64,000 nt of DNA from contig JAIXOI010000049.1 in assembly GCA_027486795.1 (NCBI GenBank), positions 62,001-126,000 of the forward strand, given 5' to 3'. This DNA is from Sphingobacteriales bacterium (GTDB lineage Bacteria > Bacteroidota > Bacteroidia > Chitinophagales > CAIOSU01). The position numbers and the translations under genes were made by a program. The notes under the pieces were generated by a model that was not told the DNA's origin, did no database searches, and was given only the letters and a program-made list of their open reading frames with translations. Below, piece by piece: positions 3,110 to 50,301 of this stretch (the first letter of the stretch is position 1; each line of letters starts with the position of its first letter).

Positions 3110-4008
3110 TATCCTATCCTCCCAATTAACATCGCCATCAAAACTACCGGAAGATATATAATTGATACAAACATCAATTTACGTGCGTCTGCATCTTCAC
3201 AAGTGCGAAACAACTGCGCGGCTTGTAACATAAACATTATTCCGGCCAACAATATTACTATACCACCAATCCAGTGCACCCATCCCATCATTACCGGTAT
3301 CAATGATACTGGTATTAAAACACTGATGTAGATAATGTTCTGCAAGGCAGTAAACTTATCTTTTCCACCTTCTGAAGGTAGTAGTTTAAAACCAGCCTTT
3401 TTATAGTCGGCTTCACCTATCCATGCTATCGACCAAAAGTGCGGGAACTGCCACAAGAATTGCATCATGGTTATAGATAGACCAATTACAGAAATTTCTC
3501 CGGTGGCTGCTACCCAACCAATTAATGGAGGCATAGCACCAGGTATAGCACCAATAAACACCGCAATAGGCGACAGGCGCTTCATAGGGGTGTATATAAA
3601 CGCGTAACTAAACAACGATACTGCACCTAGGAATGCGCTCAGATAGTTAAAAAAGTAACCCAGTATTAATATACCTGCAACACCCATGATACCAGCAGCC
3701 AATATAGCCTCGGTAGAGCTCATGCGGCCAGTGGCTAAAGGGCGGTTTTCGGTACGCTTCATTAATTTATCTAGGTCCTTTTCAAATACTTCATTCAAAG
3801 CATTTGCAGAACCTGTAACTAAAAAACCTCCTAAGAATAATAACAACAAATACCCCAAATCAACATGGCCATAATTGGCTATAGCAAAAGTAATAACCGA
3901 AGAGAATACCACGGTACCAGCCAAACGCAACTTTACCAATTGGCTGTAGTCAGCCAATTTGGCTCGGATGAGCGTTGTTAGTGGGTTGGTTTGTATACGG
4001 GTATTCAC
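3109..4008 (-). CDS. ctaB: protoheme IX farnesyltransferase (heme O synthase)
   Basis: A 299-residue UbiA-family polytopic prenyltransferase with about nine helices. The first prenyl-diphosphate site is visible as NALNEVFEKDLDKL (about residues 65-78), followed by KRTENRPLATGRMS, the signature of CyoE/CtaB proteins. It farnesylates heme B to heme O, the precursor of heme A for the oxidase encoded next to it. No heme A synthase (ctaA) gene is present in this window. Gene order (coxA, ctaB, subunit III) and the one-base overlap with the next gene support co-expression with the oxidase. Confidence 0.95.
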   Translation of the reverse strand: MNTRIQTNPLTTLIRAKLADYSQLVKLRLAGTVVFSSVITFAIANYGHVDLGYLLLLFLGGFLVTGSANALNEVFEKDLDKLMKRTENRPLATGRMSSTEAILAAGIMGVAGILILGYFFNYLSAFLGAVSLFSYAFIYTPMKRLSPIAVFIGAIPGAMPPLIGWVAATGEISVIGLSITMMQFLWQFPHFWSIAWIGEADYKKAGFKLLPSEGGKDKFTALQNIIYISVLIPVSLIPVMMGWVHWIGGIVILLAGIMFMLQAAQLFRTCEDADARKLMFVSIIYLPVVLMAMLIGRIG

Positions 4009-4056: not shown

Positions 4057-5937
4057 TTAGTGTTTGCCAGGTATTGCACTACCTACATTCGGTAAATCAG
4101 AGCCATGGTCATGGTCATCAACTTCGCCAGCGCCTAGGGCCTCAGTTTGAGGGATAAAGTCGCGACCGTTAATGCTATAATCGTAAGGCCAACGGTGTAC
4201 TGCAGGTATTTCGCCTACCCAGTTACCGTGTCCAGGGTGAATTGGAGTAGTCCACTCAAGAGTTGTAGCACCATAAGGATTCAACACGGTTACTTTACGG
4301 CCTTTGAAGATGCTGTAGAAGAAGTTGAATACAAACAAGATGTTTACTGCAAACACGATAATAGCGGCAATGGTTATGAATTTGTTCAAATCGGCGTATT
4401 GGTTAAATTGATCGAATACCGAGAAATCGTAGTAACGACGTGGTACGCCCGACATACCTAAGTAATGCATTGGCCAAAATATAGCGTAGCTACCTACTAG
4501 GGTTACATAAAAGTGCACATAGCCCATGCTAGAGTTCATGTAGCGACCAAACATTTTAGGGAACCAGTGATATATACCGGCAAACATACCATAAAATGCT
4601 GCTAAGCCCATTACTATATGGAAGTGAGCAACTACATAGTATGTATCGTGCAATTGTATATCCAAGGTTGAGTTACCAAGATAGATACCAGTAAGACCAC
4701 CTGAAATGAACAGGGATACGAAACCGATGGCGAACAACATAGCAGGGTTCAAGCGGATGCTACCGCGCCACAGGGTGGTAATCCAGTTGAATACTTTGAT
4801 GGCTGATGGTACAGCAATCAACAACGTAAACAATACGAATATGGACGCAACAAACGGATTCAATCCCGACATAAACATGTGGTGAGCCCACACGATAAAC
4901 GATAGGATAGTAATACCTAGGATAGAGAAAACCATCGCCTTGTAACCAAATATCGGTTTACGTGAGTGAACCGACATAACTTCGGATACAATACCCATGG
5001 CAGGCAAGATAATAATATATACCTCTGGGTGACCCAAGAACCAGAACAAGTGTTGGAACAAAATTGGGCTACCGCCAGAATGTTGCAGTGCTTCACCAGC
5101 TACATAAATGTCGCTAAGGAAGAAGCTCGTGCCCAACAAACGGTCGAACTCAAGCAAAATTGCGGCGCCGAACAATACTGGGAATGATAGCAAACCAATG
5201 ATAGCAGTAAAAAAGAACGCCCAAACGGTAAGTGGCATACGGAAGAAGTCCATGCCTTTAGTGCGCATGTTGATTACAGTGGTTACATAGTTAAGGCCAC
5301 CTAACGCTACCGATACAATGAATAATGCAATGCTTATCAACCACAAATCCATACCAAGGCCTGAACCAAGACTAGCTTGTGGCAATGCACTTAGTGGTGG
5401 GTATGCTGTCCAACCACCTGATGCAGGACCAGTTTGGATAAACAAAGAGAACAACATCACGCAGCTTGAAAGCACGAACATCCAGAAGGATAACATGTTC
5501 ATAAATGGCGAGGCCATATCTCTAGCACCTACTTGAAGCGGAATGAGGAAATTACTGAAAGTACCACTCAAACCTGCGGTTAGTACAAAGAATACCAGAA
5601 TAGTACCGTGCATGGTAACCAACGCGTAGTAAAACTCAGCACTTAGTTTGCCACCTTCGGCCCAGCTACCTAAAAACCACTCCAAAATTGGGAATGATTC
5701 TTCGGGCCATGCTAGTTGCAAACGAAAGAAGATGGAAAACAGACCACCTACTATAGCCCATGCCATACCAAGGAACAGGAACTGTTTCCCAATAACCTTG
5801 TGGTCTTGACTAAAAATGTATTTCTCAATAAAATTCAGCTCATGGTGACCATGATCGTCGTGCCCGTGATGGTGGTCATGCCCGTGACCGTGCGTATCAT
5901 GTCCAACTTCAATCGCTGGGTTATGTAATTCAGCCAT
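4057..5937 (-). CDS. ctaD: cytochrome c oxidase subunit I, A1 type
   Basis: A 626-residue catalytic subunit with 12 helices. The full ligand set is present: His110 and His440 for low-spin heme a, His438 for heme a3, and His303, His352 and His353 for CuB. Tyr307 in GHPEVY is the residue cross-linked to a CuB histidine, and Glu305 is the D-channel glutamate that marks the A1 type. It reduces oxygen to water and pumps protons. Unusual is a histidine/aspartate-rich cytoplasmic N-terminus (residues 11-32, about half histidine) and a smaller HDHG motif near the C-terminus. It lies 11 bases after coxB. There is no fused subunit III domain. Confidence 0.97.
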   Translation of the reverse strand: MAELHNPAIEVGHDTHGHGHDHHHGHDDHGHHELNFIEKYIFSQDHKVIGKQFLFLGMAWAIVGGLFSIFFRLQLAWPEESFPILEWFLGSWAEGGKLSAEFYYALVTMHGTILVFFVLTAGLSGTFSNFLIPLQVGARDMASPFMNMLSFWMFVLSSCVMLFSLFIQTGPASGGWTAYPPLSALPQASLGSGLGMDLWLISIALFIVSVALGGLNYVTTVINMRTKGMDFFRMPLTVWAFFFTAIIGLLSFPVLFGAAILLEFDRLLGTSFFLSDIYVAGEALQHSGGSPILFQHLFWFLGHPEVYIIILPAMGIVSEVMSVHSRKPIFGYKAMVFSILGITILSFIVWAHHMFMSGLNPFVASIFVLFTLLIAVPSAIKVFNWITTLWRGSIRLNPAMLFAIGFVSLFISGGLTGIYLGNSTLDIQLHDTYYVVAHFHIVMGLAAFYGMFAGIYHWFPKMFGRYMNSSMGYVHFYVTLVGSYAIFWPMHYLGMSGVPRRYYDFSVFDQFNQYADLNKFITIAAIIVFAVNILFVFNFFYSIFKGRKVTVLNPYGATTLEWTTPIHPGHGNWVGEIPAVHRWPYDYSINGRDFIPQTEALGAGEVDDHDHGSDLPNVGSAIPGKH

Positions 5938-7091: not shown

Positions 7092-8330
7092 TTATTTTAA
7101 CGTATGATGCGTGATACTTTCTCTCAAATAAGGGTTGTTCACCGGTATCAATGACTGCTTGGTAAGGGTATTGAACACTACGAAAATGAATATGCCAATA
7201 AATGTTGAAAGCATTCCAAATTCAATCAATCCGAAACCTGCATGCGACTCGTGTGTTTTGTGGTCTGTCATGGTACCTGGGGCAATTTGGTTGTAAAAAT
7301 CTATCCAGTGACCAAGGAACAACACAACAGCAACAAACACCAATAGCTCAACATTCCTTTTTGATTTCCTCCTAATTAGAACAAGGAACGGGAAGAAAAA
7401 GTTGACGGATAAGCTGGTAAAAAATAGAAATTTAAATAGCGGATTGCTGAAACGTTGTGCGAAGTATGCGGTTTCTTCTGGCATGTTGCCATACCATATC
7501 AACATAAACTGGCTAAACCATAGGTAGGTGTAGAAAACGCTGAATCCGAACATGAACATTGCCAAGTTGTGGTAGTGTTCTTCGTTTACATCTTTCAAGT
7601 ACCCTTGTGTTTTTAGATAAGCTACAGTTACTATCATTATGGCAAGCGCACCTACCATATAGCTAGCAAAATTGTACCATCCAAATAGCGTGCTATACCA
7701 GTGTGGGTCTACACTCATTGATATATCCCAAGCACCAGTTGAACTGGTTACTGCAAAAATCAAGATAAAAATGGCAGCAATGTATTTACTTTTCTGGTAC
7801 GTTGCCGATACGCCAAGGATATCTTCTTTCTTTGAGATGTTGCGCATGGCAAATATTGCGGCAGTCCAAAGCGCTACATATGATACAATACGTATGGCAT
7901 AGAACACTGGGTTTAAGTAAACCGATTTGCCTGTAGTTTCTGCAATTAGCGCATCATAATTAGGGCTTGCAGGATCGTGTATACCTTCAGCAGCCCAGAA
8001 GTACAAGTGGTGACCGTGAAATAGCGTGCCTACAAGTATGATTAAAAGAAATATACCCATTACTGGCACTATAGAACCCATAGCCTCTGGAATGCGCTTA
8101 ATGAGTACGTGCCATCCACCGTAACCAATTTGGTGGGCCGCAATAAGAAATATAGAAGCGAGGCCGATACCTGTAAAATAATAGGTATCGATCAATAAGT
8201 TCGACCATACCCTGTCAATACCGTGTCCACCGGCTAGGAGAGCCCCAACGATGACAGCCAAAAGACCGATACCTAGAAATAAGGCTGCGGTTTTTTTGAG
8301 TCCGGATGAAAAATTATATGTTTCAGTCAT
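7092..8330 (-). CDS. actF: alternative complex III subunit ActF (NrfD-like membrane subunit)
   Basis: A 412-residue polytopic protein with about ten helices, recognised as the second quinol:cytochrome c oxidoreductase membrane subunit from its position after the ActE cytochrome and motifs such as AMFMFGFSVFYTYLWFSQ (about residues 256-273), followed by a FMLIWYGNMPEE segment. It resembles ActC in fold but shares little sequence with it. ActF helps form the membrane core of alternative complex III; whether it binds quinone itself is unsettled in the family. It precedes coxB by 9 bases, which physically links complex III and oxidase genes. Confidence 0.9.
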   Translation of the reverse strand: MTETYNFSSGLKKTAALFLGIGLLAVIVGALLAGGHGIDRVWSNLLIDTYYFTGIGLASIFLIAAHQIGYGGWHVLIKRIPEAMGSIVPVMGIFLLIILVGTLFHGHHLYFWAAEGIHDPASPNYDALIAETTGKSVYLNPVFYAIRIVSYVALWTAAIFAMRNISKKEDILGVSATYQKSKYIAAIFILIFAVTSSTGAWDISMSVDPHWYSTLFGWYNFASYMVGALAIMIVTVAYLKTQGYLKDVNEEHYHNLAMFMFGFSVFYTYLWFSQFMLIWYGNMPEETAYFAQRFSNPLFKFLFFTSLSVNFFFPFLVLIRRKSKRNVELLVFVAVVLFLGHWIDFYNQIAPGTMTDHKTHESHAGFGLIEFGMLSTFIGIFIFVVFNTLTKQSLIPVNNPYLRESITHHTLK

Positions 8331-8375
8331 TGCGAAATGCGCTTATAGTTTATTGGGATGTTGCGTCGTTACTTA

Positions 8376-9095
8376 TTAATTACCGGTTGCGGTGCTATCT
8401 GCTGGTGCTGCTGCCGTGGTAGAGGCTGCATTTTTAGCAAATGGTCCTACGTTTACCAATTGTTGAATGTAGTAAATAACCTTCCACCTATCATCGGTAG
8501 TTAAAACGTATGAATAGCTACCCATTAAGTTTTTACCATAGGTAATGCTATGGAACATTTGTCCTTCCGAAATGGTGGGTAAACGATCGGCATAAGATGG
8601 CACAGGTGGGTAGGCTTGGGTTTGCACAATGCTACCGTCGCCCAAACCTTTCTCGCCATGGCATACCATGCAGTGTATGGTGTAAAGGTATTTACCACGC
8701 TCCAACACTTCTTTTTCAGGTTGGAAAGGGTTCTTCAAATTGTTGGTAGAAGCAAGGTAGTTGCTATCGGTATTGGCGTAATGGGTTTTGTATAGATACG
8801 AGGCCAACACTTTATCATCGCCAATATTGGTGGCTGGCAACAAACCTCTAGCAATTGTGTGCGCTACGGGCAAGCGAGCCTCAAAGCTATCTACCGCACC
8901 AAGGCTATCCTTGCCAAATGATGGGTTTTTAGTGTATGTTTCGTAAGCCTGAGAGTATGCCATATCTGGCACAAAAGTGCGTCCTGGGGTGCGGTTGTCG
9001 CTGCCACAAGATGCAAGGGCCAACATCAGGGCACCTACAAGGCTCAATCGTACTGTTTGATGAATATTCATGTCAACCAAGTGGTTATCTTTCAT
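8376..9095 (-). CDS. actE: alternative complex III subunit ActE, monoheme cytochrome c lipoprotein
   Basis: A 239-residue lipoprotein cytochrome. A hydrophobic signal ends in the lipobox LASC (Cys30), so the mature protein is probably lipid-anchored on the periplasmic side. The heme c motif CMVCH is at 142-146, with GEKGLGDG following, and a methionine near 193 (KNLMGSYS) is a plausible sixth ligand. The C-terminus is Ala/Thr/Ser-rich. The first start leaves only 3 bases after actD; an internal ATG at 9071 would give a more typical lipoprotein signal of 21 residues, so the start is uncertain. The subunit is thought to pass electrons out of ACIII to the oxidase. Confidence 0.92.
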   Translation of the reverse strand: MKDNHLVDMNIHQTVRLSLVGALMLALASCGSDNRTPGRTFVPDMAYSQAYETYTKNPSFGKDSLGAVDSFEARLPVAHTIARGLLPATNIGDDKVLASYLYKTHYANTDSNYLASTNNLKNPFQPEKEVLERGKYLYTIHCMVCHGEKGLGDGSIVQTQAYPPVPSYADRLPTISEGQMFHSITYGKNLMGSYSYVLTTDDRWKVIYYIQQLVNVGPFAKNAASTTAAAPADSTATGN

Positions 9096-9098
9096 TTA

Positions 9099-9632
9099 TT
9101 ATTTCTCTTCATCAAAATCACGCACTTTGATTTCGGCTACACCAGTTTTGGTGAAGGTATCGTTGATGCGTGAGTAATCTTCAGGAGTGGTATCTTCCGT
9201 TACCTTTATGGCCATACCGAACAAATAATCGGTAGTGCGCTCATCATAAATTTTCGGTTTAGCGGAAATAGACAATCCACAACGTATAAAAAAGGCTACT
9301 ACCATTGATATGGCTGCAAACAATACAGTCAACTCAAAAGTGATAGGTATGTAAGAAGGTAATGACAAATAAGGCTTACCACCATAGTTGGTAGGGTAGC
9401 TAGAGGTTGCTGCCCAAATCATAAATGAAATAGCAATAGTGAAACCAGTAGCACCGCCAACAAAACCTACCGTATGTAAACGGCTTTGTCTGTGACCAAG
9501 TGCGTCATCTAATCCGTGAACCGGAAATGGTGTAACCACTTCGTGGATGTGGAAGCCAGCTTGCTTTACTTTCTTAACGGCAGAAAGCAACACTTCTTCG
9601 TCATCGTACAGTCCTACTACGTATTTATCCAT
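9099..9632 (-). CDS. actD: alternative complex III subunit ActD (DUF3341)
   Basis: A 177-residue DUF3341 protein with two transmembrane helices (about residues 57-77 and 97-117). The N-terminal part resembles a heavy-metal-associated or ferredoxin-like fold and carries the family features VGLYDDEE and a VHGLDDALGHRQSRL-type stretch. No cofactor motif is present. ActD is an accessory structural subunit of alternative complex III. It lies between actC (21 bases) and actE (3 bases), the standard order. Confidence 0.92.
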   Translation of the reverse strand: MDKYVVGLYDDEEVLLSAVKKVKQAGFHIHEVVTPFPVHGLDDALGHRQSRLHTVGFVGGATGFTIAISFMIWAATSSYPTNYGGKPYLSLPSYIPITFELTVLFAAISMVVAFFIRCGLSISAKPKIYDERTTDYLFGMAIKVTEDTTPEDYSRINDTFTKTGVAEIKVRDFDEEK

Positions 9633-9653
9633 TGGATGTAGCTTGTTTCTTAA

Positions 9654-11111
9654 TTAGTCAATTTTTACATCGTGGTGAGCACCAGCTAGGTCTCCACCTT
9701 CGGCGTAACCGCCTTTGGCCATTGCATCATCTTTTGCTTTCTGCTTAACACGGGCAGCAGCACCTGATGATTTCAAGATTGATTTTACCTCTGCTATAGC
9801 TATTACTGGGAACGCCCTAGCAAACAACAAGAACAAGGTAAAAAACAACCCGATGGTACCCACATAGATACCTACTTCAACCCAACTTGGGTAGTAATCG
9901 GCCCAGCTTGATGGGATATAATCGCGGTACAAAGAAGTTACGATGATTACAAAACGCTCGAACCACATACCGATGTTAACGGTGATAGATAGGAAGAACG
10001 TTAGGTATAAGTTGCGGCGTAGTTTTTTAATCCAGAAGAACTGCGGGCTGATTACGTTGCAGGTCATCATGATGTAGTATGCCCAAGCCATAGGGCCCAA
10101 TGCGCGGTTGTAAAAAGCAAACCACTCATAAATGAAACCAGAGTACCAAGCAGTCCACAATTCAGTGATGTAGGCTATACCTACAATAGAGCCTGTAAGT
10201 AGGATGATTTTGTTCATTGCTTCAATGTGAGCAATGGTAATATAATCTTCTAGCTTCAAAACCTTGCGGGTAATCAACATCAACGTTAATACCATCGCGA
10301 AGCCCGAGAAGATTGCACCTGCAACGAAGTACGGAGGGAAGATGGTGGTGTGCCAGCCAGGGATAACCGATGTTGCAAAGTCAAATGATACGATCGTGTG
10401 TACTGATAATACTAGAGGGGTTGATAAACCAGCAAGTACTAGTGATAGTGATTCAAAACGTTGCCAGTGTTTGGCTTCACCGCGCCAGCCGAAGCTAAGC
10501 GCATTGTATATGGCTTTGCGAATTTTGCCTTTAGAGCGGTCGCGGATGGTACCAAAATCGGGCAACAAACCAGAGTACCAGAACAACAGCGATACGGTAA
10601 AGTAAGTAGAAATGGCAAATACGTCCCACATTAACGGCGATTGGAAGTTAGGCCAAAGCGGACCGCGTGAGTTTGGATAAGGGAAGATAAAGAACGCCAT
10701 CCATGGACGACCCATGTGGATACCTGGAAACTGTGCTGCGCATATAACCGCAAAGATGGTCATCGCTTCTGCAGCGCGGTTGATACCGGTACGCCACTTT
10801 TGGCGGAACAACAACAATACCGCCGAGATAAGGGTACCAGCGTGGCCAATACCTACCCACCAAACGAAGTTGGTAATGTCATAAGCCCAACCTACCGTCT
10901 TGTTCAAGTTCCATACGCCGATACCGTAATACACGGTCCACGCTACACAGAAAAAGTAGAATGCGGCCAAACTTCCGGCAATGCTAATAGCAATTACCCA
11001 ACTCAATGGCGGAAAACCTTGCGTGCTTCTTACTATATCCGTGGTGATTTGTTTATAATCCTTATCACCAAGTATCAGAGGCTCGCGTATGGGTGATTCG
11101 TAAGATCCCAT
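9654..11111 (-). CDS. actC: alternative complex III subunit ActC (NrfD/PsrC quinol-binding subunit)
   Basis: A 485-residue ten-helix NrfD/PsrC-family protein. Recognisable parts are the N-terminal REPLILGD, WWVGIGHAGTLISA near residue 90 and HTIVSFDFA near 240. The latter two carry conserved histidine and aspartate residues of the quinol-oxidising side in characterised ACIII. The last 45 residues are a charged, Ala/Lys/Gly-rich tail. ActC sits under the ActB Fe-S subunit and oxidises menaquinol. The gene follows actB by 23 bases and precedes actD by 21. Confidence 0.94.
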   Translation of the reverse strand: MGSYESPIREPLILGDKDYKQITTDIVRSTQGFPPLSWVIAISIAGSLAAFYFFCVAWTVYYGIGVWNLNKTVGWAYDITNFVWWVGIGHAGTLISAVLLLFRQKWRTGINRAAEAMTIFAVICAAQFPGIHMGRPWMAFFIFPYPNSRGPLWPNFQSPLMWDVFAISTYFTVSLLFWYSGLLPDFGTIRDRSKGKIRKAIYNALSFGWRGEAKHWQRFESLSLVLAGLSTPLVLSVHTIVSFDFATSVIPGWHTTIFPPYFVAGAIFSGFAMVLTLMLITRKVLKLEDYITIAHIEAMNKIILLTGSIVGIAYITELWTAWYSGFIYEWFAFYNRALGPMAWAYYIMMTCNVISPQFFWIKKLRRNLYLTFFLSITVNIGMWFERFVIIVTSLYRDYIPSSWADYYPSWVEVGIYVGTIGLFFTLFLLFARAFPVIAIAEVKSILKSSGAAARVKQKAKDDAMAKGGYAEGGDLAGAHHDVKID

Positions 11112-11134
11112 GCTGTGTTATTTGTTATTTCTAA

Positions 11135-14100
11135 TTAATGATGTCCTTCTTCACTATGACTGTCGTGCGATGCAGGTGCTTCAGTGCCGTGTGCCTCACC
11201 ACCAGTGTGGTGCGCTTCAGCTCCGGGCGGATGCATGGTATTATTGCTCAACAGGTTTACTGCTTTCAATTGCTCTTTGTCGTTGATATTACGCACCCGG
11301 GTAAGGTAAGTAATAGACGGAAGCGTGTGTATTTCCTCGATAACTTTAAACCCGCGCTCGTTGTTGCTCATCAAAGTTGCCGCAGATTCTGGGTTGTTTA
11401 CATCACCAAATACAATTGCACCAGTTACACAAGCGCTTTGGCAAGCTGTTTTGATGTCGCCATCTTGCAGTTTACGACCTTGTTTTTTGGCGGTAAGTTT
11501 GCCCTCTTGTATGCGCTGCACGCAGAAAGAACATTTCTCCATTACACCACGAGAACGAACCGTTACATCAGGGTTCAATACCATGCGTGTAAGGTCACCT
11601 GTCATTTGGTGTGGATCGTAGTTGTTTTCTAGCGCACCTGTGAGTGTAAAGCTATCGGCACCCCAGTAATCGAACCAGTTGAAACGACGTACTTTATAAG
11701 GGCAGTTGTTTGCGCAATAACGGGTACCGATACAACGATTGTAGGCCATTTGGTTCAAGCCTTCGCTGCTGTGGTTGGTTGCCGATACTGGGCAAACGTT
11801 TTCGCATGGTGCGTTTTCGCAATGTTGGCACATCATCGGTTGGAAAACCGCTGATGGGTTTTCAACATCGCCAAAGTAGTAGCGGTCAATACGCAACCAG
11901 TGCATCTCGCGATACAAGGTTATCTCTTTCTTACCTACTACTGGTATATTGTTTTCGGCATTACAAGCTACTACGCAAGCACCGCAACCAAAACATGCGT
12001 TTAGGTCAATGCCCATTCCCCATTTGTGTCCAGGAAACTCGTGGTAGCCATATAATGTTTGCAAGTGCTCTTTTACGTGTGCACGGTCATGATTACCAGC
12101 GGCAGGGTCGTGTGCATACTCTTCTAGCGTGGTAGTTTTTACTATACCGCGTTGGTTCAAACCGTCGCTTACGCTAAAGTGTGTTTGTGTTTGGCCTAGT
12201 TTGTAGTCGTTACCGGTTACGGTAAAACTCGCATCGTTGGCATAGCGGCTTTGGCCACCATTGCTATATTTAGTAAGGAAAGGGTAAACATTAGCACCTA
12301 CTTCGCCAGCTTTACCTACCACTTCGCGACCATAGCCCAACGCTACCGCAATAGTACCATCAGGCATACCTGGCTGAATGTGCACTGGCAATTCAACTTC
12401 GGTACCGTTTACGGTAAGTTTAATGGTTTGAACGGTGCGGCCATAGCTCTTACGCGTGCGGTCGGCAGTAAAGTCAAGTCCATTAGCTTCAGCAAACTTC
12501 AACGATACGCAAGCGTAGTTGTCCCAAGTTATTTTAGATACCGGATCGGGCAATTCTTGCAACCAAGGGTTGTCAGTGTCCTTACCATCACCAATGGCGG
12601 TCTTTTCGTACATTACTACTTCAAGGCCACCCGATTTTACGTTTTTCAACGCTGCAGCTCCCGCAGCGGCAACATCTATAGTGCCTGCTGTAACGGTTAC
12701 TGTTGGGGTATAAGTAAACACGCCATCGTGCACCGAGCGATCCCAGAAGTGACCAAATAGGTTCAATCCGGTACTCTTGGTAAAGATGTTGTTATTCCAG
12801 TTCTCACGAACAAAATCGTAGTATGATTGATTGATGCCCGCAAATTTCAACAAGCTTTCGCCAGCCGAACGGGTATCGAACAATGGGTCGATTGTAGGTT
12901 GGATGATGCTAATGTGGCCGTTGCGCGGTTCAGCATCTCCCCAGCTCTCTAAGTAATGGTGGTCGGGAGCCAAAAACTGACAAAGGGTATCGGTTTCGGT
13001 CTGTTTGTCGTTCAAAGAAACAGTCAACTCCACTTTGCCAAGGGCTTCGATGAATTTATCACCTTTAGCTAGGTTGTAAGCTGGGTTGCTATTGATGATA
13101 ATCAGACCTTTTACAGTTCCTGCTTCAACATCGGCTACCAATTTGTTATATGCGGTATCGTTACCTTGGCGTAGGTTGCTATATTCGTTAAGGTCGATAG
13201 TAGTGCCGTAGTTACCAAGTAATTGGTTCAACGCATTTACAATCAACTGCACGTTTACATCGTTTGAGCCACTAACCACCAATGAAGCACCTTTAGCTTC
13301 TACTAAGTCGTTGGCTGCGTTTTTCAAGCTTTCGCTGTAAGCCGATTCTAGCTTGCCACCGCTAATGCTGGTACCGCCCAATTTGGCAGCTACCAAGTTG
13401 TACAAGGTAATAGCCGCTGCGGTTTCTTCTGATGGTTTTACTGGTACACGAACGTCGGCGTTCAGACCAGTTAAGCTTGCGTAAGACTCTACCTGATAGT
13501 GGCGAGACATCTTAGCGTTGTCTTTGCTTACTTTACGGGTTAGGCCATAATTGTAAGCATATTCAGTTGGGCTAATCCAAGTACCTAAGAAATCGGCACC
13601 TAAACTAACTACCACCTTAGCTTTCTCGAAACGGTAGTTTGGCACCACACGCAAGCCGAAGCTTTGCTCATTGGCATCTAACAAACCGCTGTAAGATACT
13701 GCATCGTATTGCACCAACTCCGTACCTGGAAATTGCTCAATAAATTTGGCAATAGCGGCTTTAAGAGATGGGCTGATTATAGTTGAAGACAAAATACGGA
13801 TAGTGCCACCTGCTGCTTTGATAGCTTGTAGTTTTTCAACTACAGCTTTATCAAGCTCAGCCCAATTAGTTGCTTTTTTATTGGCAACTGGGCCGCGTGG
13901 GCGGTGCATATCATATAGGCTCAGTACAGAAGCTTGTGCCGATGCATCAGTACCGCCGTAGGTAATTTGGGATAGGTTGTTACCCTCAATTTTGATAGGG
14001 CGGCCTTCGCGGGTTTTTACCAATACGCTGCAATAGTTGCCACCGTCAACATACGATGATGCGTAGTAATTGGCTATACCTGGGGTAATTTCATCAGGTT

Positions 14101-46332: not shown

Positions 46333-46605
46333 ATGCCAGGTAAAAAAAATGGAGGTTACGATCCAGATGAAGAAGAGGATGACGACCTCGATACCAATGA
46401 TTTCGATGATGATGATGATGATTTAGATGATCTCGATGACGACGATGATGATGATTTTGATGCCGAGCCTAAAAAGCCAGCAGCAAAAAAGCCATTGGGT
46501 AAGCCAGGTAAAAAATCAAAATCGGAAGACGATGATGAGTTTGAAGAATTCAACCATCGCTTCGAAGATTTTGACAAGTTCGATGACGACGACGACGATT
46601 ATTAA
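46333..46605 (+). CDS. highly acidic aspartate-rich small protein
   Basis: A 90-residue protein in which roughly 40 percent of residues are Asp or Glu. Two acidic blocks (residues 9-48 and 65-90) flank a lysine/proline-rich hinge (KKPAAKKPLGKPGKKSK). The DNA is a run of GAT/GAC codons. Small acidic proteins with similar layout occur widely in Bacteroidota; histone-like or chaperone buffering of basic proteins is conceivable but unproven. A strong terminator follows 32 bases after the stop, supporting a real monocistronic gene. Confidence 0.78.
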   Translation: MPGKKNGGYDPDEEEDDDLDTNDFDDDDDDLDDLDDDDDDDFDAEPKKPAAKKPLGKPGKKSKSEDDDEFEEFNHRFEDFDKFDDDDDDY

Positions 46606-46670: not shown

Positions 46671-46812
46671 TATGGGTAACGGTTTGGGCAGCCTTGAGCA
46701 CAACTTTCTTTGTGTCAAAACATGGTAGCTCCTATACCCATGGGCGTGGTTGGGTGATTGCGCTGCCCATCAGTAGAAACCCTATTTTAGGCACCTTGTG
46801 TAATACAGTTGA

Positions 46813-46820
46813 TACCTTCG
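46813..46820 (+). promoter_or_regulatory. probable -7 box of the first secreted paralogue gene
   Basis: TACCTTCG differs from TAnnTTTG at one position and lies 24 bases before the ATG at 46845. It favours that ATG over an in-frame upstream alternative at 46809. Confidence 0.35.
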
Positions 46821-46844
46821 CCGTTCTATTGCAAATTGCCCCAT

Positions 46845-47690
46845 ATGAGAAATACACTCCTGTTGCTAGTTGTATGTTTTGCCCTGCCTACTTTCGCGGC
46901 TAATACGGTTTCATTGAAAGATGCATTAGCCCAAGGCCTAATAAGTGTAAAGGCCATTGGTGAAGGCGGATATACGGGTAAGGTAATGGCCCTTGAAATA
47001 AGCAGCCTGTACAAGAAAGACCTTGTGGTAGATATACCTGCTGGCCTGCAACTCAACTCAGAAGATAGCACCATACAGGACCTTATTATTACCGACACGC
47101 GCCTTTTGGAGCTGGCTGCTGGTAGCAAGCGCAGGCTTATTATCAATGCCATGTGCATACAGCCGAGCAATGGGTCGCCGTATGCCAATAGCGTGTTTAT
47201 ATTAGGTGCCATGGCCAACGATACGTTGGTAAAACTAGCCCAGTACTTAGCCACTAAAGGCTACCAAGACGATTTGGGCCAATCGGCCATTTGGGCTATG
47301 GTAAATAACGAAGGGCTCGAAAACGTATATGGCAGCGACCCAACCCGCCTGCAAGATTTGCTACAATACATGCACCTGCTTACAGGTAAGCCACTGCCAT
47401 GGTACAACAAAGAGAAGGCCGCCCCGCCTGTGGGCCAAGTATATACCCAAGAACCTGCCATCATCCATGCCAACTTTGAGTTTAAGCTAGCCATGGCGGG
47501 CACGGCACGCTTAGCCATATACAATGAGGCTGGCGAAGTGGTGTACGTTATCAAGGATAACATGATGGTAAAAAGTGGCAAAAGCACCATGAAATTCCGC
47601 ATTGAGGTGCGTGGGTACGAAGTGGGCAAATACTTTGTGCGCCTTGAGCTTAATGGCAAGTTGCAAGAAGAGAAGGTGTTTGAGTTGTAA
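46845..47690 (+). CDS. secreted protein of unknown function, paralogue 1 of a tandem pair
   Basis: A 281-residue exported protein (signal RNTLLLLVVCFALPTFA, about 2-18). The N-terminal domain (about 22-165) contains VSLKDALAQGLI, IPAGLQLNSED, QDLIITDTRLLEL, AMCIQPSNGSP and LGQSAIW. The linker includes GLENVYG and PWYNKEK. A C-terminal beta domain (about 205-281) has the style of FlgD/T9SS-like Ig modules (LAIYNEAGEVVYV, GKYFVRLELNGK) but lacks the YPNP start of sorting domains. The next gene encodes a protein of exactly the same length. No family with known function recognised. Confidence 0.85.
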   Translation: MRNTLLLLVVCFALPTFAANTVSLKDALAQGLISVKAIGEGGYTGKVMALEISSLYKKDLVVDIPAGLQLNSEDSTIQDLIITDTRLLELAAGSKRRLIINAMCIQPSNGSPYANSVFILGAMANDTLVKLAQYLATKGYQDDLGQSAIWAMVNNEGLENVYGSDPTRLQDLLQYMHLLTGKPLPWYNKEKAAPPVGQVYTQEPAIIHANFEFKLAMAGTARLAIYNEAGEVVYVIKDNMMVKSGKSTMKFRIEVRGYEVGKYFVRLELNGKLQEEKVFEL

Positions 47691-47735: not shown

Positions 47736-48581
47736 ATGAAGAATTTATTGCTAATAATGACATTGGTTGCCAGCCTATCTGTTATTGAGGCAAAGGATAT
47801 CGATTTGCAAGATGCCATTGAACAGGGTATTGTAAAAGCTAGTGTTAAAGGTGTCGGTGGGCACCTGGGTAAAGTATTGGCACTAGAGGTAACCAATATT
47901 CAAAATAGAACTGTTTACATCAATATCCCTGTCGGGCTTCAGTTCCTTTCAGAGGATGAGGGGCTGCAAGACCTTATTAATACCCAAGGTACACGCTTGG
48001 TAATAGCCGCCGGCAGAGTAAATAAACTAATGCTAAATGCCATGTGTATACAACCCAGCAATGGTTCACCTTCGGTGGGGAGTAGCTTTTTAGTAGGTAC
48101 ACTTGCTACAGGGGCATTGCTAGAGTTGGTGCAATATATCTCCCAGAAACAGTACCTAGACAATCTCGGGCAATCGGCGGTATGGACTTTGATACGGGGC
48201 GAAGGGCTAGAAAACGTCTATGGGCCAGACCAAAATAAACTGAATGATTTGGTGCAGTTTATGAGCCAGTTAACAGATAAAGAAGTGCCGTGGTACAACA
48301 AAGAAAAACTACCGCCGCCTCCCGGACAAGTATTTAGCGCCGAGCCATCTATATTGCATGGCATCTATACCTTTCATTTGGAGCAGAAAGGTTTTGCCAA
48401 TTTGGCGGTGTACGACTCAACGGGTAAAGAGGTGTTTCTGTTTTTAGAACACTTTGAAGTACTACCCGGCGATAACCGCCTTAAATTTAAGCTTACCGTA
48501 AAGGGCTATAAAGCTGGTAAATACTATGCGCGGCTGTTTCTAGATGGGGTAATGAAGGAGGAGAAAATGTTTGAGATATAG
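47736..48581 (+). CDS. secreted protein of unknown function, paralogue 2 of a tandem pair
   Basis: A 281-residue paralogue of the protein encoded just upstream, starting 45 bases after its stop. It shares AMCIQPSNGSP, LGQSAVW, GLENVYG, PWYNKEK and PPxGQV, and both end in KxFE-hydrophobic (KMFEI here). Differences are spread over the whole length, so this is an old duplication, not a recent one. The signal peptide (KNLLLIMTLVASLSVIEA) is intact. Conserved single cysteine in AMCIQ. Probably an envelope protein; no catalytic site recognised. Confidence 0.85.
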   Translation: MKNLLLIMTLVASLSVIEAKDIDLQDAIEQGIVKASVKGVGGHLGKVLALEVTNIQNRTVYINIPVGLQFLSEDEGLQDLINTQGTRLVIAAGRVNKLMLNAMCIQPSNGSPSVGSSFLVGTLATGALLELVQYISQKQYLDNLGQSAVWTLIRGEGLENVYGPDQNKLNDLVQFMSQLTDKEVPWYNKEKLPPPPGQVFSAEPSILHGIYTFHLEQKGFANLAVYDSTGKEVFLFLEHFEVLPGDNRLKFKLTVKGYKAGKYYARLFLDGVMKEEKMFEI

Positions 48582-48692
48582 GGTTAAGCATGCCCCTTTA
48601 GCAAGCTAATCGCCGCGAAGCCAAACTATGGTTAATTGAGTTGAAAGATTTTGGCGGCGGAGTTGTTCAGGGCTGGTGGAAGGTGGTGTGAG

Positions 48693-49511
48693 CTATTCAT
48701 ATATATTCCAACTGACGCAATTTAGCACGCCATCTTGTTTGGCAATTTCGGTGGCATATACTGGTAATATTTTACTTTCGGGAAAGCATTTCCCAATAAA
48801 ATCAAGTACTATTTCATCTTCTTTTAAACCAAATGAGGGTATCAGTATAAGCCCCTTAACCTGCAGATAATTGATGTAAATTCCGACTGCTGTTTTTGTC
48901 AAGACCATTGGCATTTCGGCACAATTTAGTTTGTTCTCTTTTAACACTTTAGTAAGCCGGTACCGAAAAGAGGGAGATTCTTTAGAAAGGTCATTTACTA
49001 AAACCGTATCTCCATTTATAAACCTAATCATTCCATCTGCATGACCTGTATAATCATCATAGTGATGAGGCACGATAATGACAGATGCATTTAAAATTTC
49101 CTCTAACTCTGATAATAACTGGAAGGGTTCAATATTTGGATTCTCGTCAAATACTTTATCTGTTACTATTACTTTCTCAGCACACTTAATCACATTACCT
49201 CCGTCAAGATTGATACTACTAAAACGCGGCTCAACTCCATTTTTTAAGCATACAATTTTAGGGTCGGATTTCAGATTTTTGTATTTATGTTCATTCAAGT
49301 AACTAGGGTCATACCTAAATTGAATAAATTCCTCAGTAGAAACTTGCACTGGCATGTAATCTCTGCACCAAATATCTTTGGTGCTAGCTAAATTTTTTAC
49401 TACTACATTGTTTCCACTTAAAATTTTGTCTATTGCCCGAAACTCCTTGATATACTTTGATGCAAAAAGCTCAGAGAAATAGACGGTATTAGTTTCCCAA
49501 TCTGGTATCAT
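48693..49511 (-). CDS. agmatine deiminase family protein (guanidino-group modifying enzyme)
   Basis: A 272-residue pentein-fold protein of the peptidylarginine/agmatine deiminase superfamily. Catalytic elements are IWCRDYMP (Asp51), LDGGN near 103, GHADG (His157, Asp159) and the nucleophile Cys265 in GVLNCVSWN, eight residues from the C-terminus. It is shorter than classical agmatine deiminases (about 340-370) because it lacks their N-terminal part; similar short versions exist in Bacteroidota. The substrate could be agmatine or another guanidine compound. It overlaps the upstream gene by four bases and is AT-richer than its neighbours. Confidence 0.88.
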   Translation of the reverse strand: MIPDWETNTVYFSELFASKYIKEFRAIDKILSGNNVVVKNLASTKDIWCRDYMPVQVSTEEFIQFRYDPSYLNEHKYKNLKSDPKIVCLKNGVEPRFSSINLDGGNVIKCAEKVIVTDKVFDENPNIEPFQLLSELEEILNASVIIVPHHYDDYTGHADGMIRFINGDTVLVNDLSKESPSFRYRLTKVLKENKLNCAEMPMVLTKTAVGIYINYLQVKGLILIPSFGLKEDEIVLDFIGKCFPESKILPVYATEIAKQDGVLNCVSWNIYE

Positions 49512-50104
49512 TCTGCCAATTCGTTTATTTCTAAACCTATCCAGTGACTTTCGGGATAAGATAATTTTCCTTTGTCAGTAAAGTAGCGGTAAGGCTTGCT
49601 GAGAAATTTATCGTCAATAATATAATTTTTAGTTACAGCAGGTTTTAACCCATGGCGGGTTGTGGTGTATATTGCAGGTGCTATAAATGAGTTGGGGACA
49701 AGTTGAATAGTGCCTTGTATTTCGGCCTTCCCTAATAACTCGAACAATCTAAACCAAACTTTTAGTGGGCCATTAATATACCTACTTTTACCATCAAGTT
49801 TGTCATCTAAAATACCTCTTATTAGTATTCCTCCTACTTGGCCGCTTTTTTCGTCTCCTTCAGCCTGAAAGGTAATATCTACACCTTGATTGTGCATACG
49901 CCATTCACCAGCATTGCGGTTATGCTCGTGGGTGGTATAATCTTGGTGCTCATCACTCCAAAAGTAGAATTCAATCTCAGTGATGCGTAACTTATGTTCA
50001 TTTACTTTTATGGCTGAACGAAATATGTCCTTAGCTATTCGATCGAAAGAGATTTTTATAGAAGCCTCATCCGTTCTATCTATTTTTAAATTTAATTTAG
50101 TCAT
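49508..50104 (-). CDS. unknown protein with alkyladenine-DNA-glycosylase-like motif order
   Basis: A 198-residue cytoplasmic protein. I do not recognise it as a named family. The order of motifs follows the AAG/MPG fold: LRITEIEFYFW (40-49; compare RIVETEAY, where the second Glu is catalytic and Tyr stacks on the base), then HEHNRN (59-64), a glycine in HNQGVD, GGILIRGI (91-98), NGPLKVWFRLF (111-121) and TRHG with KPYRYF (149-175). Glu45 and Tyr47 would be the active-site equivalents. This alignment is by eye and inferential. Its last four bases overlap the agmatine deiminase start, so the two are translationally coupled. A full consensus promoter precedes it. Confidence 0.72.
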   Translation of the reverse strand: MTKLNLKIDRTDEASIKISFDRIAKDIFRSAIKVNEHKLRITEIEFYFWSDEHQDYTTHEHNRNAGEWRMHNQGVDITFQAEGDEKSGQVGGILIRGILDDKLDGKSRYINGPLKVWFRLFELLGKAEIQGTIQLVPNSFIAPAIYTTTRHGLKPAVTKNYIIDDKFLSKPYRYFTDKGKLSYPESHWIGLEINELAE

Positions 50105-50139
50105 TTTATTTTGTTTTAAAATTAATAATTATTATACTA

Positions 50140-50169
50140 CAAAGCTAAATGATTTAATTGAGAGAACAA
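50140..50169 (-). promoter_or_regulatory. promoter of the AAG-like/deiminase cassette
   Basis: On the minus strand TTG (50169-50167, at the end of a T-run), a 19-base spacer and TAGCTTTG (50147-50140). This is one of the best consensus promoters in the window, 36 bases upstream of the ATG at 50104. Confidence 0.65.
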
Positions 50170-50220
50170 AAAAAGTGGATATTTATGGGTTCGGGCTAGC
50201 TATTTCCCCCACAGCAAGGG

Positions 50221-50284
50221 GATTGCTTCAAGCCTGTCTACTTCATAGTTAGGGGAAGGCTGTTCAGGCTTTCGCAATGACGGG
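50221..50284 (-). repeat. dispersed GTCATTGCGAA...GAAGCAATC repeat (inverse copy)
   Basis: On the minus strand it reads CCCGTCATTGCGAAAGCCTG ... TTGAAGCAATC, matching 41486-41548 (CGTCATTGCGA ... GAAGCAACC) at both ends with a different middle. Such CGTCATTGCGA...GAAGCAATC elements are recurrent in many bacterial genomes. It sits between the cassette promoter and the acnA terminator. Confidence 0.7.
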
Positions 50285-50301
50285 TTGGGTGGAATACCAA
50301 C

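Follow-up and report, generated by a model that had tools for sequence, protein, structure and literature searches.

Base-excision repair is the setting from which the fold of alkyladenine DNA glycosylase (AAG, or MPG) is known. AAG deprotonates the water through Glu125, keeps it in place with the help of Arg182 and stacks Tyr127 against the base, and hypoxanthine is a base excised by the enzyme (PMC12347255). Glycosylase-based immunity is represented by Brig1, Brig2 and Brig3 with BapA; Brig3, of the UDG superfamily, cuts 5hmC out of phage DNA, and BapA is a hydrolase, encoded by an overlapping gene, whose removal of glucose from the base opens the way for Brig3 (PMC13160076). The gene pair described here shares with these systems an overlapping two-gene operon that joins a base-excising enzyme to a base-altering hydrolase (both activities putative here; PMC11078745, PMC13160076), as well as a patchy distribution and, for some copies, a placing among defence genes. 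The differences lie in the enzymes themselves, as Brigs belong to the UDG superfamily and BapA removes glucose, whereas here an AAG fold is combined with a guanidino-modifying (PAD) fold; the AAG-like protein does not have the Brig-type UDG-superfamily fold.

A divergent AAG-like gene in Bacteroidota

The window (the whole stretch of 64,000 nucleotides that was analysed) carries on its minus strand, at 49508–50104, a gene with an ATG start for a 198-aa protein of divergent AAG/MPG glycosylase fold; the plus strand across 49508–50104 is riddled with stops and the real ORF is that of the minus strand. The protein has no match above cut-off in Pfam, NCBIfam, PHROGs or PADLOC (no useful E-value), and its sequence alone returned nothing useful from plasmids, phages, viral contigs and genome contigs. 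The initial annotation had recognized in it a series of motifs in the order in which they occur in AAG. GGILIRGI, INGPLK and TRHG...KPYRYF are confirmed in the translation, and LRITEIEFY is likewise present, although it starts at residue 39 (39–47) and not at 40. HEHNRN is found at 59–64, but its ‘RN’ is not conserved in relatives and is thus a chance resemblance.

Relatives at 33–40% identity were recovered from 12 genomes by a single-sequence tblastn search of ∼800 genomes of the order and phylum, and an alignment-based search found the family in 15 of 395 genomes of the class; none of the six other genomes of the same taxonomic family yielded the gene. The named relatives all belong to Bacteroidota, other phyla being sampled by a pattern-limited scan only. 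The AAG-like family is patchy and was found here only in Bacteroidota. Across 22 aligned members, Glu45, Gly74 and Arg150 are invariant, and Tyr47 (20/22, otherwise Phe), Asp55 (21/22), Asp76 (20/22), Leu94 (20/22) and Arg96 (21/22, otherwise Lys) are nearly so, with His occupying position 59 in 13 of the 22.

Profile and structural evidence for an AAG fold

The family was compared by hhalign with a profile built from 36 canonical AAGs, among them human AAG as read from a PDB alignment; the human residue numbering was checked. The two profiles align collinearly with a score of 57.3 and a probability of 95.0% (local) or 96.2% (global). As controls, 200 AAG profiles with shuffled columns scored 13.3 ± 2.4 and at most 21.5, the reversed profile scored 10.4 and a profile of the PAD-like partner described below scored 11.7. 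A score of 57.3 against a shuffled maximum of 21.5 places the motif order far beyond chance, and the shuffle and reversal controls rule out a chance motif resemblance to AAG. AlphaFold models of the window protein (pLDDT 87.1, pTM 0.86) and of the relative L010 (pLDDT 89.6, pTM 0.88) are both confident, and in Foldseek searches of the PDB human AAG ranks first for each. For the window model this match has an E-value of 0.043 and a probability of 0.90, and it is followed by methionyl-tRNA formyltransferases, the C-terminal domain of which belongs with AAG to one SCOP structural superfamily. L010 retrieves three human AAG entries at E-values of 1e-4 to 5e-4 (best probability 1.00), with the next unrelated match only at an E-value of 0.67. 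The TM-scores are modest, at 0.42–0.46. The proposal of an AAG-like fold in the initial annotation is thereby upheld, by the profile alignment for the family and by the structural searches for two of its members.

Simpler comparisons do not reach this far. The best member of the family gives a weak, collinear match to PF02245 of 13.5 bits, under the Pfam cut-off of 27, whereas the window protein has no match to PF02245 at all, and a HMMER profile of 12 members did not find AAG among PDB sequences. The relationship is reached only through profile–profile comparison and structure.

The strongest structural matches of all are giant-virus proteins in BFVD, namely Catovirus A0A1V0SB56 (E 3e-9) and Hyperionvirus A0A3G5A9Y1 (E 5e-9), with TM-scores of ∼0.66–0.68 and 22–24% identity; these come from viruses of protists, unlike the Bacteroidota family. 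The Mimivirus Kroon protein A0A0G2YBS4 is also among the closest unnamed giant-virus structural matches in BFVD. Scans of IMG/VR with family, PAD-like or motif queries returned no giant-virus or phage copies, and so the giant-virus link comes from the structure library alone.

A retained hydrolytic centre and a remodelled duplex-invading part

In the profile alignment, Glu45 falls on human Glu125 and Tyr47 on Tyr127, as had been proposed, and Asp55, His59 and Arg96 fall on human Asp132, His136 and Arg182, respectively, with Arg150 on the Arg of RVGV. The positions of GP.., RxG[VL] and K/R-P-x-R-[FY] are shared with AAG, as are the fold and the order of the motifs. Taken with the profile and structural matches, the family shares fold ancestry and the catalytic Glu, Arg and Tyr positions with AAG. 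The central region is rewritten relative to AAG, in agreement with the earlier remark that the family-typical central sequence is not kept. Tyr159 and Tyr162, which are invariant in the 36 AAGs, are not retained in the AAG-like family; the position aligned with Tyr159 (71) is mostly His and also Asn, and that aligned with Tyr162 (73) is mostly Ser or Ala (Tyr in 3 of 22), both with some doubt over one alignment gap. The family is also near neutral (median pI 6.6, net charge −1), whereas AAG is basic (9.05, +4). With the catalytic residues in place and both Tyr159/Tyr162 and the basic charge gone, the hydrolytic centre is kept and the duplex-invading part remodelled. The near-neutral charge and the loss of Tyr162 further suggest that binding of duplex DNA is not obligatory and that a nucleotide or RNA substrate is possible.

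The AAG-like gene is paired with a PAD-like gene

The second gene (48693–49511, minus strand) encodes a 272-aa protein that is a short form of the PF04371 PAD_porph/agmatine-deiminase superfamily, with a score of 91.5 bits against a cut-off of 25 (E 7.7e-26) and with agmatine deiminases and PADs of the PDB matched at an E-value of 3e-10. The two genes overlap in an ATGA (49508–49511, minus strand; gap −4) that contains the AAG-like stop codon and the PAD-like start codon, an arrangement that makes translational coupling likely. The agmatine deiminase equivalog TIGR03380 (agmatine_aguA) scores the PAD-like gene at 46.3 bits, below its cut-off of 381.8. Among eight paired PAD-like members, Asp51, Asp103-Gly-Gly, His157, Asp159 and Cys265 are invariant, and the catalytic Asp, His and Cys positions are those of agmatine deiminases and Porphyromonas-type PADs. 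The PAD-like form differs from these enzymes in its length (about 272–285 aa, compared with 330–390 in PDB relatives) and in forming an operon with glycosylases or nucleases; no PAD or agmatine deiminase is known to act on nucleic acids.

A PAD-family gene directly adjoins the AAG-like gene at 18 of 30 assessable loci. In nearly all of these the PAD-family gene follows the AAG-like one on its strand, −31 to +45 bp away (in two it lies upstream), the genes overlap by 1–4 bp in many loci, and the pairing holds at identities down to ∼30%. The AAG-like gene and the PAD-like gene, whose product has a guanidino/amidino hydrolase fold, thus form a two-gene unit. The other 12 AAG-like loci have no PAD neighbour. 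In two further loci, L043 (6544–7218) and L045 (6563–7234), a related gene instead of a PAD-like one comes after the AAG-like gene. The one in L043 has a weak match to uracil-DNA-glycosylase family 4, a possible two-glycosylase unit. The PAD-less AAG-like genes of L049 and L052 adjoin very long genes, which by eye resemble contractile injection system tape-measure and ATPase proteins.

The two-gene unit is mobile

In the window, the two genes are the only ones carried on an inserted segment of ∼1.7 kb (48584–50295, without strand assignment). The site is empty in the sister genome G005, where the equivalents of window positions 48583 and 50296 are joined with 11 bp between them, one flank being 97% and the other 95% identical. 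The genomes G003 and G004 also lack the AAG-like gene and, together with the empty site in G005, make insertion into the lineage of the window the simplest account. The GC content of the segment is 34–39%, compared with 44–51% in its flanks. A covariance model found no attC-like site at the window copy, and integron carriage of this copy is rejected. No repeats resembling insertion ends were found either. Adjoining the insertion are tandem paralogues, 46% identical, that encode unnamed proteins (46809–47690 and 47736–48581, plus strand), and at 46333–46605 on the same strand a 90-aa ORF, mostly Asp, Glu and Lys, encodes a low-complexity acidic protein.

Insertion of the gene also bears on whether the protein serves ordinary base-excision repair as a divergent AAG standing in for a missing canonical one. 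The catalytic positions are retained and a PF02245 match is absent from the window genome (G000), as such a substitution would have it. The genomes G002, G004 and G005 of the same genus nevertheless lack PF02245 without carrying the AAG-like gene, which leaves the replacement of a lost AAG a weak explanation, while G074, G131 and G490 carry both a PF02245 AAG and the AAG-like gene, and the gene itself is an insertion on a mobile unit. A role in ordinary repair is thus very unlikely. The initial annotation had placed the protein outside the usual context of DNA repair, and both its PAD-like partner and its mobile carrier bear this out, these being also among the traits that set the AAG-like family apart from AAG.

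Elsewhere, a 2.3-kb unit consisting of just the two genes is 93–96% identical across contigs that have unrelated flanks and are labelled Chitinophagales, Flavobacteriales and Bacteroidales. Its edges are formed by ∼140-bp repeats with long imperfect inverted arms and a CGTTA end, in which 12 of 16 consensus pairs show compensatory changes; judged by these sequence features, the edge repeats are attC-like sites. The attC hairpin is present at the cassette edges of L039, L040, L060 and L041 (all AAG-like) and of L171 (UDG-like), and L167 (HNH-like/PAD-like) has an attC-like repeat on one edge and a weak far edge. With the covariance model, attC-like sites recur between the ORFs along L039, a long integron-type array in a Chitinophagales MAG, at 96–232, 868–1004, 2817–2953, 3611–3747, 4293–4426, 4930–5068, 5217–5355, 7512–7648, 8267–8403, 10501–10637, 11473–11612 and 12505–12641. 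A complete Thoeris pair (ThsA, ThsB) occupies the adjacent cassette in L039. The integron integrase TIGR02249 gave sub-threshold, split matches only, one of them, broken, on the contig of L039. The AAG-like protein of the integron cassettes (L039:5395-6660; also L040, L041 and L060) has an extra N-terminal domain of ∼210 aa without a Pfam match. The AAG-like/PAD-like unit is mobile, as the empty site and the near-identical copies in unrelated flanks illustrate.

As integron cassettes join unrelated genes, and as 12 AAG-like loci stand alone, the pairing might be an accident of cassette shuffling between enzymes with unrelated jobs. A single cassette holds both genes, however, rather than two cassettes holding one each, and the pairing of 18 of 30 loci, many with 1–4 bp overlaps and down to ∼30% identity, is hard to reconcile with chance assembly, to which we give very little credence.

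Exchange of the partner of the PAD-like gene

The PAD-like subfamily occurs at 23 places in 22 of 390 genomes of the class. Its neighbour is AAG-like at eight of these, a UDG-superfamily protein at five, HNH-like at three and DUF1801 at one, with no recognised partner at the remaining six. Among the UDG-superfamily partners, that of L156 scores above the TIGR04274 cut-off, those of L151, L159 and L160 have significant scores under it and that of L162 is assigned by eye only; in L151 the gene is convergent with its PAD-like gene. Two of the HNH-like partners have sub-cut-off Pfam HNH matches, and that of L155 is so classed by Cys pairs only. On well-supported branches of the PAD-like tree, the partner label changes at least four times for AAG, at least three for UDG and at least three for HNH, and the nearest relative of the window PAD-like protein (50% identity, support 100/97) is itself partnered by a UDG-superfamily protein. 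The PAD-like gene has thus been repeatedly re-paired with unrelated DNA glycosylases of the UDG superfamily and with HNH-like nucleases. TIGR04274, a deoxyinosine (hypoxanthine) glycosylase, fills the same slot beside the PAD-like gene and has only this slot in common with the AAG-like protein, being of the UDG superfamily and of a fold unrelated to AAG. The best argument that the AAG-like protein, too, excises bases is its replacement by another DNA glycosylase fold next to one and the same PAD-like enzyme.

The exchange of partners also helps to weigh a reading in which the pair acts on small molecules or the nucleotide pool, the N-glycosidase and the guanidine hydrolase together degrading or sanitising a guanidino or amidino nucleoside such as oxidised guanine (guanidinohydantoin) or a nucleoside antibiotic. 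The neutral charge of the family would suit such a role, as would the absence of both the intercalating Tyr162 and the central segment that binds DNA, and the small guanidino compounds that are substrates of the agmatine deiminases among the PDB relatives. Partners of the PAD-like enzyme elsewhere include UDG-superfamily glycosylases and HNH-like nucleases, whose substrate is polymeric nucleic acid, and this makes a nucleotide-pool function quite unlikely.

Toxin–antitoxin cassettes are common in integron arrays, and the pair could be a toxin–immunity or toxin–antitoxin system in which the exchangeable partner inflicts damage on nucleic acid and is kept in check, or has its effect reversed, by the PAD-like protein. 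Nucleic-acid-attacking first genes that are swapped beside a constant second gene, short overlapping operons, integron carriage and patchy distribution would all be expected of it. The invariant PAD-like active site, however, implies catalysis by this protein rather than mere binding, and some AAG-like genes (12 of 30) lack a PAD neighbour, just as some PAD-like genes lack a partner, so that we regard a toxin system as unlikely.

A putative module for the modification and excision of bases

The reading we prefer to these alternatives is that a divergent AAG-fold N-glycosylase and a PAD-like hydrolase form a mobile and probably anti-phage module, and its prospects of being right as a whole are about evenly balanced. 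The AAG-like protein would break an N-glycosidic bond by hydrolysis, its Glu45 and Arg96 holding the water in the manner of AAG, and its substrate would be a base in nucleic acid, since DNA glycosylases and nucleases take its place at other loci. The PAD-like enzyme may work on the same nucleic acid, hydrolysing an amidino/guanidino or exocyclic amino group of the base, either to deaminate the base (e.g. to hypoxanthine) or to remove a modification, after which the partner would excise the altered base or cut. Deamination to hypoxanthine is one concrete option, given that AAG excises hypoxanthine and that TIGR04274 is named for deoxyinosine. The role of the pair, by analogy with Brig3–BapA, the closest system with an established mechanism, would be defence against phage or other foreign DNA. 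Points against this reading are the near-neutral charge and lost Tyr162 of the family, the AAG-like genes that have no PAD neighbour (12 of 30), the PAD-like genes that have no recognised partner (6 of 23), the ordinary chromosomal setting of some units and the fact that PADs and agmatine deiminases are not known to act on nucleic acids.

Defence-type genes are found near several copies, including Thoeris (L050), NERD and UvrD (L062), a type II MTase-like/PglX-like protein directly upstream (L058), TmtA (L059), Vsr with PDC-M27C (L173) and an orphan MTase (L172). The neighbourhood is only suggestive of a defence role, other copies lying among housekeeping genes, with ordinary chromosomal surroundings that include aconitase (window) and ribosomal protein L3 (L042). 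At L176, an AriAB-like (PARIS defence) gene (10449–12023) lies directly upstream of the pair (PAD-like 9541–10404, AAG-like 8738–9454) and on the same strand.

A constant PAD-like hydrolase with an exchangeable base-excising or DNA-cutting partner is apparently an undescribed mobile module. No account of an agmatine deiminase joined with AAG or with a deoxyinosine glycosylase was found in open-licence PubMed Central, and among the papers that wider searches of this source listed, no title or abstract describes the AAG-like/PAD-like pairing. More tentatively, and on balance improbable in this full form, the PAD-like proteins may be the first enzymes of the guanidino-modifying fold to act on DNA or RNA nucleobases, deaminating or demodifying a base, with the exchangeable effector (AAG-fold glycosylase, UDG-fold glycosylase or HNH nuclease) destroying the nucleic acid so marked, in a modular anti-phage system that is spread in part by integrons.

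The family adds to the AAG fold a divergent branch that keeps the catalytic residues, travels as mobile cargo and can evidently be swapped for DNA glycosylases of a different fold. The swapping of partners makes the system testable, as one PAD-like enzyme is combined with several effectors. The family also offers a first lead on the unnamed giant-virus proteins of the same fold. Should phage DNA prove to be the target of the pair, a further fold and a further chemistry would join the glycosylase-based immunity typified by Brig1–3 and BapA.
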